From Mammaliicoccus sp. Dog046 (GTDB lineage Bacteria; Bacillota; Bacilli; Staphylococcales; Staphylococcaceae), in the NCBI RefSeq assembly GCF_034039665.1, contig NZ_CP120131.1, positions 2,348,499 through 2,412,498 of the forward strand: a stretch of 64,000 bases of DNA, given 5' to 3'. The notes beneath the pieces were generated by a model. The model was not told the origin of the DNA and made no database searches. It saw only the letters and a list, made by a program, of their open reading frames with translations. Numbering within the stretch: position 1 is the stretch's first letter; each line of letters starts with the position of its first letter. Below, one piece after another: positions 149 to 36,854 of the stretch. The position numbers and the translations under genes were made by a program.

Positions 149-901
149 ATGAACGAAGCAGCAAAAACTTTAGACGGTTGGTATAGCTTGCATTTATTCT
201 ATGCAATAGATTGGACAAGCCTTAAAAATGTACCAGAAGAAGATAGAAACACAATGATTCAATCTTTCAAAACATTCCTTGAAGGATTAGAAACAGTTCA
301 TAATAATAAAGAAGGTTCACATGCGTTTTACAACATTACAGGACAAAAAGCAGACCTAATGTTATGGTTCTTACGTCCAGATGTTAAACAACTCAATGCA
401 CTAGAGAATGAATTCAACAAGTTAGATATTAGTGACTTCTTAATACCAACTTATTCATACGTTTCAGTAGTTGAACTTTCAAATTATCTTGCAGGTGACT
501 CAAACGAAGATCCATATGAGAACCCACATGTTAAAGCAAGATTATATCCAGAAGTACCACGTTCAGAATACGTTTGTTTCTACCCAATGGATAAACGCCG
601 TGACGGAGAAGACAACTGGTATATGCTAGATATGGAACAACGCCGTAGCTTAATGCGTTCACACGGATTAATCGGACGTAGTTATGCAGGTAAAGTAAAA
701 CAATTCATTACCGGTTCTGTAGGTTTAGATGACTACGAATGGGGCGTAACATTATTTAGTGATGATATGTTACAGTTTAAAAAATTAATCTATGAAATGC
801 GTTTTGATGAAGTATCTGCAAAATACGGTGACTTCGGTGCATTCTACGTAGGAAACTTATTAAATATCGATGAATTAGATACATTCTTTAAATTAAATTA
901 A
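149..901 (+). CDS. hemQ: HemQ, coproheme decarboxylase (coproporphyrin-dependent haem synthesis)
   Basis: This enzyme converts Fe-coproporphyrin III to haem b in the cytoplasm, the last step of the Gram-positive coproporphyrin pathway; it belongs to the chlorite-dismutase-like family. The 250-residue length equals that of the S. aureus protein. Visible landmarks are the N-terminal [11 protein letters not shown] block, the catalytic Tyr in CFYPM (Tyr145), and the candidate haem-ligand His in SHGLIGR (His172). A good ribosome site (AAGGAG) precedes the ATG. It appears to be a single-gene unit with its own promoter and terminator. Older annotations call it 'chlorite dismutase', but no such activity is expected. 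Confidence 0.95.
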
Positions 902-906
902 TATGT

Positions 907-947
907 AAAAGCCTGAGAAACGATTTATTCGTCTCTCAGGCTTTTTT
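907..947 (+). terminator. Rho-independent terminator of hemQ
   Basis: GCCTGAGA pairs with TCTCAGGC around a short internal loop and is followed by a run of T. It is flanked by A-run and T-run and lies just after the hemQ stop. It belongs to the CTGAGA-stem terminators that recur in this window. Confidence 0.85.
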
Positions 948-961
948 GCGAATGAAATAGT

Positions 962-1470
962 GAGAGATATCGTGCGTTTGACCTTGAATCGCACGATATC
1001 TCAGCCCTACCCCCTAACTCTTCGTGCGATTCACACCTAATCGCACGATATCTCAGCCCTACCCCCTAACTCTTCGTGCGATTCACACCTAATCGCACGA
1101 TATCTCAGCCCTACCCCCTAACTCTTCGTGCGATTCACACCTAATCGCACGATATCTCAGCTCTACCCCCTAACTCTTCGTGCGTTTGACATCTAATCGC
1201 ACGATATCTCAGCCCTACCCCCTAACTCTTCGTGCGATTCACACCTAATCGCACGATATCTCTGCTCTACACCCTAAGTCTTCGTGCGTTTGACACCTAA
1301 TCGCACGATATCTCGGCTCTACACCCTAAGTCTTCGTGCGTTTGACACCTAATCGCACGATATCTCGGCTCTACCCCCTAACTCTTCGTGCGTTTGACAC
1401 CTAATCGCACGATATCTCGGCCCAACCCACTAACTCTTCGTGCGTTTGACACCTAATCGCACGATATCTC
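962..1470. repeat. Tandem array of ten 52-bp palindromic units
   Basis: Ten units begin with TCGTGCG at 970, 1022, 1074, 1126, 1178, 1230, 1282, 1334, 1386 and 1438, a strict 52-base period. In each unit TCGTGCG and CGCACGA face each other across a short loop, followed by TATCTC and a C-rich linker (such as CTACCCCCTAACTCT). Four units carry TCGTGCGATT/AATCGCACGA, a perfect 10-bp stem; the rest carry GTTTGACA in the left arm. The first unit has a longer stem, GAGATATCGTGCG (964-976) against its exact complement (990-1002). Units 2 and 3 are identical. The array fills the gap between the convergent genes hemQ and the DUF423 gene and codes for nothing convincing. Function unknown. Confidence 0.95.
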
Positions 1471-1503
1471 TGCACCACTACTCACCCTTATAATTCCACA
1501 AAT

Positions 1504-1553
1504 AAAAAAAGATACAGAACTTGAAATCTTCTATCTCTAGATTTCTGCTCTGT
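1504..1553 (-). terminator. Terminator of the ung-YwdI-DUF423 unit
   Basis: Read on the minus strand, ACAGAGCAGAAATC pairs imperfectly with GATTTCAAGTTCTGT and is followed by a T-rich tract. It sits just after the stop codon of the DUF423 gene. Confidence 0.7.
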
Positions 1554-1578
1554 ACCTCTCTAAACTTCAATATTTAAC

Positions 1579-1941
1579 TTATAACTTCCATACTGCAATG
1601 ACAAGTAGTATCCAACTTACGATAAAGAGTACTCCACCGATTGGCGTAATTGCACCTAGTATTTTAATTTGTGTCACTGCCAAAATATATAATGATCCAC
1701 TAAAGAATACAATTCCAAATGTCATTAACCATCCTGCAACATTTAAACTTGCAGTCGTTGTTCCTGAAATAATACCGATTAAAATTAATCCTAATGCATG
1801 ATACATTTGATAAGTTGTTGCTTTCTCCCAAATATCTAAGTATTTAGCAGTTAATTTATTCTCTAAACCATGTGCACCAAAAGCACCTGCTGCAACTGCG
1901 ATCATCGCATTGATTGCACCTATTATTATAAATAATTTCAT
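1579..1941 (-). CDS. DUF423 family small membrane protein (YwdK-like)
   Basis: A 120-residue protein made almost entirely of hydrophobic segments, with about four membrane helices. The start resembles the DUF423 pattern: [20 protein letters not shown] followed by a YQMYHALG motif. DUF423 proteins are widespread small inner-membrane proteins without a proven function. It is the last gene of a three-gene minus-strand unit (ung, a YwdI-like gene, this gene), the same neighbours as the ywd genes of Bacillus subtilis. A ribosome site (AAGGAAGG) precedes the ATG. Confidence 0.85.
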
Positions 1942-10329: not shown

Positions 10330-10352
10330 TCGTATTGGGAGATTGGGAGAAA

Positions 10353-10494
10353 AGATATCGTGCGTTTCATACCTAATCGCACGATATCTCGTCTCTATCT
10401 CCAAACTCTTCGTGCGTTTCACATCTAATCGCACGATATCTCAGCACTATCCCTAAAGTCTTCGTGCGTTTCATATCCAATCGCACGATATCTC
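10353..10494. repeat. Second array of the 52-bp palindromic repeat, three units
   Basis: Units start with TCGTGCG at 10358, 10410 and 10462, again exactly 52 bases apart, each with CGCACGATATCTC as the right arm. The sequence is the same family as the array at 962-1470, here with GTTTCATA or GTTTCACA in the loop side. As in the first array, the first unit has an extended stem: AGATATCGTGCG (10353-10364) against CGCACGATATCT (10378-10389). It lies between the terminators of two convergent genes. Apart from the two terminators it is all that this gap of about 290 bases holds. Confidence 0.93.
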
Positions 10495-10526
10495 GATACT
10501 ATACTCCAACCACAATACTTAAAATT

Positions 10527-36644: not shown

Positions 36645-36800
36645 TTATTTGTTACGTGCTTTTATGATGAGGTTTCTCAACAAAAAAGCACTTTTTACCC
36701 ACGGCAAAAAGTGCTTGAAATTTATACGTTCAAGTCAATTTAGGCCTCGGTAGGATTGGATTTTAAGTTACAAAATGAACTCCTACTGTCTTAGGTTAAA
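36645..36800 (-). promoter_or_regulatory. L10 (rplJL) mRNA leader with attenuator
   Basis: The 5' leader before rplJ contains an AAGCACTTTTT / AAAAAGTGCTT hairpin (36686-36716) followed on minus by T's, a terminator-like attenuator. Upstream lies a conserved-looking segment with CCGAGGCC. This layout is that of the known L10 leader family, where L10-L12 binding stops rplJL expression. The exact limits of the binding motif are inferred. Confidence 0.6.
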
Positions 36801-36854
36801 TATTACACATCCAAAACTATAACGTGTTTTGGATGTGAAGTCAATATTTATTTA

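Follow-up and report, generated by a model that had tools for sequence, protein, structure and literature searches.

The window analysed here comprises 64,000 nucleotides of the chromosome of Mammaliicoccus sp. Dog046 (contig NZ_CP120131.1, positions 2,348,499 to 2,412,498). Near its left end, ten copies of a palindromic sequence stand in a row between two convergent genes. What is this array, by which route did it reach its site, and does it serve the cell or only itself?

Layout of the array and anatomy of its unit

The left neighbour is hemQ (149..901, plus strand), which lies on the lagging strand in this chromosome arm and presumably encodes a coproheme decarboxylase/chlorite dismutase-like protein. 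Its convergent partner (1579..1941, minus strand) is a gene that we take, as a candidate name, to specify a DUF423-type small membrane protein. Both genes end in intrinsic terminators: that of hemQ (about 907..945, plus strand) is a hairpin with 17-nt arms followed by T6 (fold z -6.1), that of the DUF423 gene (about 1507..1561, minus strand) an imperfect hairpin followed by T7 (fold z -4.7). Both were recognised by folding; a strict consensus terminator scan missed them. The array occupies 963..1471 in forward element orientation. At 970-1470, Tandem Repeats Finder counts 9.6 copies with a period of 52, which match at 94% and have 0% indels, and the pattern TCGTGCG-N-CGCACGA occurs ten times in exact 52-base steps (970, 1022 ... 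1438; 0.00 expected in shuffles). Units 2 and 3 (plus strand, 1022..1125; 1022-1073 and 1074-1125) are identical 52-mers. No ORF of at least 60 aa overlaps the array, and a coding array was also rejected because the periods 52, 41 and 40 found here and in the families described below are not multiples of three. On all these points the sequence-only reading, which had described a strict ten-unit array with identical second and third units, devoid of coding content and flanked by two terminators, is confirmed.

The same reading had seen a TCGTGCG/CGCACGA hairpin in each unit. This applies to all ten, with the refinement that only the first has a 13-bp stem. This cap unit, (A)GAGATATCGTGCG-N13-CGCACGATATCTC (963..1003, plus strand), has a stem of at least 13 bp and folds at -14.3 kcal/mol on either DNA strand. 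Units 2-10 have a 7-bp core stem, which reaches 10 bp if the ends of the loop can pair. The array ends right after CGCACGATATCTC of the final unit (1438..1470, plus strand). A second array of 2.8 copies lies in the window at about 10352..10502 on the plus strand, in the same orientation as the first and likewise between the terminators of convergent genes. A known RNA family was rejected for both, since no Rfam family scores above its gathering threshold near 962-1471 or 10358-10502. An ordinary L10 leader (Rfam RF00557) is present at 36673-36813.

Both arrays belong to a family designated F1. Its unit is the inverted pair TCGTGCG-N13-CGCACGA, of which neither the arms nor the loop length of 13 bases varies much. 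Across 160 units, the loop measures 13 nt throughout, 94-100% retain any given base pair of the 7-bp arms, and the sequences of loops and spacers vary. The unit folds about equally well on both DNA strands. Internal units (n=74) have, with almost no exception, TCT as the three bases before the stem and TAT as those after it. About 80% of the cap units are flanked by ATA/TAT, the same flanks that give the hemQ cap its 13-bp stem. Since the TCT/TAT flanks of internal units cannot pair, an array consists of a cap hairpin with a long stem and, behind it, units with short stems. These are joined by a spacer of the form TATCTC(G/A)GC...(G/C)TCT; on the forward strand, F1 spacers are C-rich and G-poor. 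A KOPS-like motif, GGGTAGGG, is found in some spacers and was dropped as an explanation because the spacers vary. All units of an array stand head-to-tail. Identity between units is 0.895 within arrays versus 0.810 between arrays (0 of 2000 permutations), and there is no gradient of similarity between neighbours inside an array.

Placement and replication orientation of the F1 loci

The genome-wide search for the repeat that the sequence-only reading had proposed revealed that the array is not alone. A 15-mer arm query yields 205 matches in the 2.57-Mb chromosome at up to 2 mismatches, versus 1 for the reversed control. All of them (126/126 and 79/79) fall inside the analysed stretches, so the inventory is complete at this stringency. 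It comprises about 160 hairpins at 52 loci; 34 of these are arrays with 2-10 units each, and 18 consist of one hairpin only. Known plasmid and phage records contain no F1 match, and a plasmid or phage origin was therefore rejected.

F1 is a repeat of convergent gaps: 39 of the 52 loci have convergent neighbours and the other 13 tandem ones; no locus has divergent neighbours. The background was taken from 28 unbiased control stretches of 20 kb each, which together with the array regions make up the sample; there, convergent gaps account for 57 of 338 (~17%). Gene settings come from ORF-based gene calls, so single cases may be wrong. Tandem arrays of any family occupy 10/57 convergent, 9/219 tandem and 2/62 divergent gaps of the control stretches. 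At the 39 convergent F1 loci, an intrinsic terminator is found on the left in 24 and on the right in 25, and most have one on at least one side. In some cases, no intrinsic terminator separates the F1 array from one adjoining gene. A stretch of 709 kb, from 997,208 to 1,706,651, is free of F1. Its midpoint lies close to the site opposite the origin, and it has no equal in 20,000 random placements of 52 loci. As other families are present there, the empty terminus is a trait of F1 and not of all arrays.

The orientation of F1 follows the replication fork. The origin lies at the contig start (dnaA at 352). Orientation was read from the spacer in arrays and from the loop in single hairpins. By this measure 44 of 52 loci (p 4e-7) are concordant with the fork and 8 are discordant. 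The concordant loci comprise 27 of 34 arrays and 17 of 18 single hairpins, whose loops were judged by eye, one (804976) being ambiguous. In concordant loci, the purine-rich strand is the leading strand, i.e. the lagging-strand template. The purine fraction of the leading strand amounts to 0.62 in concordant F1 arrays, 0.50 in discordant ones and 0.51-0.52 in array-free gaps; for concordant arrays of all families it is 0.57-0.64. The spacer-inverted arrays are located at 183367, 477246, 502269, 997208, 1906498, 1916352 and 2194178. The loops of spacer-discordant arrays are still lagging-like by 18 to 6, as if loops had been flipped inside inverted arms.

Several sources of this polarity were considered and rejected. 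Neighbouring genes do not set the orientation, because F1 arrays keep to the fork even where both neighbours are lagging-strand genes (3/3). Growth of arrays cannot be the source, since unamplified single hairpins are oriented, too. For the same reason, selection against inversions between repeats of the same arm was set aside: single hairpins of only 35 bp are also oriented. A triplex repeat of E. coli, whose motif shows no strand preference, was considered in view of the purine bias.

Other palindromic families and the sister species

F1 is not the only family of its kind. The control stretches of this genome (G000) contain at least five further palindromic tandem families with periods of 39, 40, 41, 41 and 131, and 30 of 31 sampled arrays of five other families are fork-concordant. 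In a genome-wide search for F2, a 41-bp family, the right arm holds 17 of the 18 clusters on the plus strand; this figure rests on plus-strand clusters, as reverse-strand positions were available only among the matches listed. The 131-bp palindromic repeat (CTAACGAGAT...ATCTCGTTAG) is joined directly to F2 arrays and forms a recurrent composite with them (near 1.626, 0.232, 1.756, 2.134, 2.487 and 0.807 Mb). A 40-bp family, F4 (TTATTTGCA...TGCTAATA), was encountered solely between 0.58 and 1.64 Mb (near 1.204, 1.638, 0.577 and 0.945 Mb) and is perhaps a terminus-side family complementary to F1.

HemQ is 94% identical to its M. lentus counterpart and 93-96% identical to that of same-genus genomes, which places the chromosome in Mammaliicoccus. 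Seven of eight genomes of the genus carry an array in the gap downstream of hemQ; G002 has none. The gene next to hemQ in the congeners differs from that in the window. Their hemQ gap contains mainly tandem hairpins of a GGACCG type (GGACCGATAA...TTATCGGTCC), and in G006 several families lie side by side. Composite arrays of G006 join two to three unrelated palindromic families (TCGTGCG with 40 bp, CGCCAAAG with 42 bp, GGACCG with 41 bp). In G007, the GGACCG family, which is unrelated to F1, occupies the minus strand at four places (0.37-0.61 Mb) and the plus strand at five (2.21-2.68 Mb), and does not extend beyond about 0.7 Mb from the origin. In G006 it lies mostly on the plus strand before the origin and on the minus strand after it, with a few exceptions. 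The purine fraction of the leading strand in sampled arrays is 0.58 in G002 and 0.605 in G007 versus 0.52 in gaps (p 2e-4 and 4e-4, respectively). Thus, several unrelated families in one genome and others in two sister species obey one orientation rule set by the fork, and this shared rule means that either copying or retention is tied to replication.

F1 itself was found in none of 16 orthologous gene-pair comparisons (15 loci; sampled DNA of G002 and G007). Most of these F1-free sites have a terminator alone; four have sequence of another family, one of them degenerate. The orthologous sites without F1, together with the higher identity of units within than between arrays, indicate that F1 loci were gained within lineages and their arrays homogenised. 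Relatives share the TCGTGCG/CGCACGA arms with different intervening DNA and with short and long intervals swapped. The centre-to-centre distances of the arms are 20 and 31-32 bp in G000, 30-31 and 21 in G002, 20 and 20 in G006, and 29 and 21 in G005. Being near two or three helical turns, these distances hint at recognition by a protein on one face of the helix, although only four species are compared. A hairpin loop of 13-14 nt on one side of each arm would also account for the shorter spacing.

Known repeat systems and explanations for F1

F1 is a new family with a known lifestyle, that of STAR, REP and RUP-like repeats. It is a member of none of the systems tested, and its replication polarity, common to unrelated families, is unusually strong. 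A literature search found nothing on F1 or on intergenic repeats of Mammaliicoccus or S. sciuri; sequence strings gave only unrelated papers among the matches listed.

STAR elements of Staphylococcus aureus and S. lugdunensis are intergenic, occupy ~35 loci and consist of 1-7 tandem motifs in units of roughly 50 nt (PMC3532100). Spacers of one locus resemble each other more than those of different loci, the loci are species-specific, and their function is unknown (PMC3532100). F1 resembles them in its intergenic tandem units of ~50 nt, in the similarity of spacers within a locus and in its species-specific loci, none of the 16 orthologous comparisons holding F1. In contrast to STAR, the F1 unit is an inverted pair, lies between convergent genes and follows replication. 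The STAR motif T(G/A/T)TGTTG(G/T)GGCCC(C/A) (TNTGTTGNGGCCC) has 0 matches in G000, G002, G006 and G007 and 59 in the S. lugdunensis control, which excludes membership. In S. lugdunensis, STAR motifs are found on both strands, intermixed along the same contigs.

The sequence-only reading had called the array REP/BIME-like. As to lifestyle, this is apt: F1 is dispersed, extragenic and palindromic, its arrays are homogenised, and, like REP, BIME and REPIN, it is a short high-copy palindrome with possible protein-binding sites (PMC3733652, PMC2817692). Membership has to be denied. A GTAG is near 1 of 160 units and a CGTC near 4 of 160, no PF01797 (RAYT/Y1) protein was found in the genome, and the copies stand head-to-tail with a fixed period instead of alternating. 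BOX, RUP and SPRITE of Streptococcus pneumoniae, which are interpreted as non-autonomous parasites, are likewise small interspersed repeats enriched between convergent genes, BOX having a tandem core (PMC3049150). They are likened to F1 by description, not by sequence, and only 61-63% of them lie on the leading strand, mirroring the coding bias (PMC3049150), whereas F1 reaches 85%, mostly in convergent settings, in which the coding bias is cancelled out. A CRISPR array was rejected, since there are no unique spacers and both arms and spacers recur within and between arrays. MIRU, SIRU and VNTR loci are interspersed intergenic tandem units of 40-100 bp; F1 differs from them in its palindromic unit, its convergent gaps and its replication polarity.

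The preferred explanation, with a probability of about 0.45, views the array downstream of hemQ as a single representative of a non-coding, species-specific family of palindromic interspersed repeats that disperses by replication-coupled spread, grows locally and is parasitic or near-neutral. Copying of F1 is probably coupled to lagging-strand replication. Single hairpins would reach new sites through a replication-coupled event on the single-stranded lagging-strand template, perhaps at the palindromes of terminators. They may then expand locally into arrays through slippage or unequal exchange. Copies would persist where they are least harmful, so that the element would probably be a parasite or nearly neutral and no evolved insulator. 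The conserved arms could be the recognition target of the copying machinery or of a host protein exploited by the repeat. Against replication-coupled dispersal speaks that no mobilising enzyme was found, that the genome lacks the Y1 transposase family and that 8 of the 52 loci are discordant. Under dispersal, the F1-free 709 kb at the terminus require an additional assumption, e.g. on origin-proximal copy number. Near-invariant arms and apparent helical phasing exceed the needs of a neutral parasite and count against this explanation, too. Moreover, the purine bias common to all families suggests that composition, beyond the mechanics of insertion, is selected or shaped by the strand.

The main rival, possible but less likely, is sequence-specific protein binding: A host protein would bind inverted TCGTGCG half-sites on one helical face, and the arrays would label the part of the chromosome near the origin and be kept out of the terminus. 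Sites of nucleoid-occlusion factors are likewise excluded from the terminus. The sequence-only reading had considered a binding array, and the comparison of sequences lends this some support through the invariant arms amid variable loops and spacers and through half-site spacings near whole helical turns in G000, G002, G006 and G005 despite different intervening DNA. The position of the F1-free stretch opposite the origin and the confinement of the unrelated G007 family to the origin region would fit as well. However, four species provide few independent spacings, the family was kept at none of the compared orthologous sites, other families occupy the terminus region, and inverted sites do not need a replication polarity. 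If the arms do bind a protein, origin-proximal territory and empty terminus would indicate a chromosome-organising factor.

An improbable alternative is a one-way insulator. Here, the pyrimidine-rich strand would correspond to the RNA of head-on (lagging-strand) transcription, and a C-rich Rho-type or structural terminator would act against head-on or antisense read-through and spare leading-strand transcription. The mostly convergent loci, the polarity independent of neighbouring genes, the C-rich, G-poor spacers and the arrays that adjoin a gene with no intrinsic terminator between would agree with it. However, most loci already possess an intrinsic terminator at one flank or both, and array-free orthologous sites between convergent genes manage with a terminator alone, which makes the insulator proposed by the sequence-only reading superfluous. 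Rho-independent terminators were rejected, as TATCTC instead of a T-run follows the hairpins and the array gave no match in the terminator scan, and hairpins work against Rho loading.

Strand-biased mutation combined with slippage is a similarly implausible sole cause: Palindromes near terminators would amplify locally, and their orientation would mirror the purine skew of the chromosome. The leading-strand purine excess of all families and the lagging-like loops even in spacer-discordant arrays would be expected. However, mutation bias alone does not yield 0.62 when array-free gaps stay at background level, unamplified hairpins are oriented as well, and the same sequence at 52 loci requires copying, not local birth. 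Very improbable, finally, is a known REP/BIME or IS200/IS605-derived element whose lagging-strand hairpins are moved by a Y1 (HUH) transposase. Single-strand transposition would be expected to leave extragenic hairpins in lagging-strand orientation, and the replication-coupled transposition of IS608 and ISDra2 targets the lagging-strand template (PMC6006769), but PF01797 has no match in the genome (the control search was positive in 5 of 14 known genomes), and the GTAG or CGTC foot and the alternating arrangement are missing.

More broadly, and only tentatively, Mammaliicoccus may possess a system of unrelated palindromic array families that lie mainly between convergent genes, are oriented by the fork with the purine-rich strand leading, are in part origin-proximal and replace each other at some sites. 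It would represent either fork-coupled, transposase-free dispersal of hairpins or fast-evolving binding arrays with a role in chromosome organisation. Bacteria commonly carry short interspersed repeats, and the spread of families without a transposase is an old question. F1 arrays might also be of practical use in strain typing. A similar-style array (GTGTCCG...CGGACAC) lies between hemQ and the next gene in Macrococcus brunensis, so that this style of array reaches beyond Mammaliicoccus.
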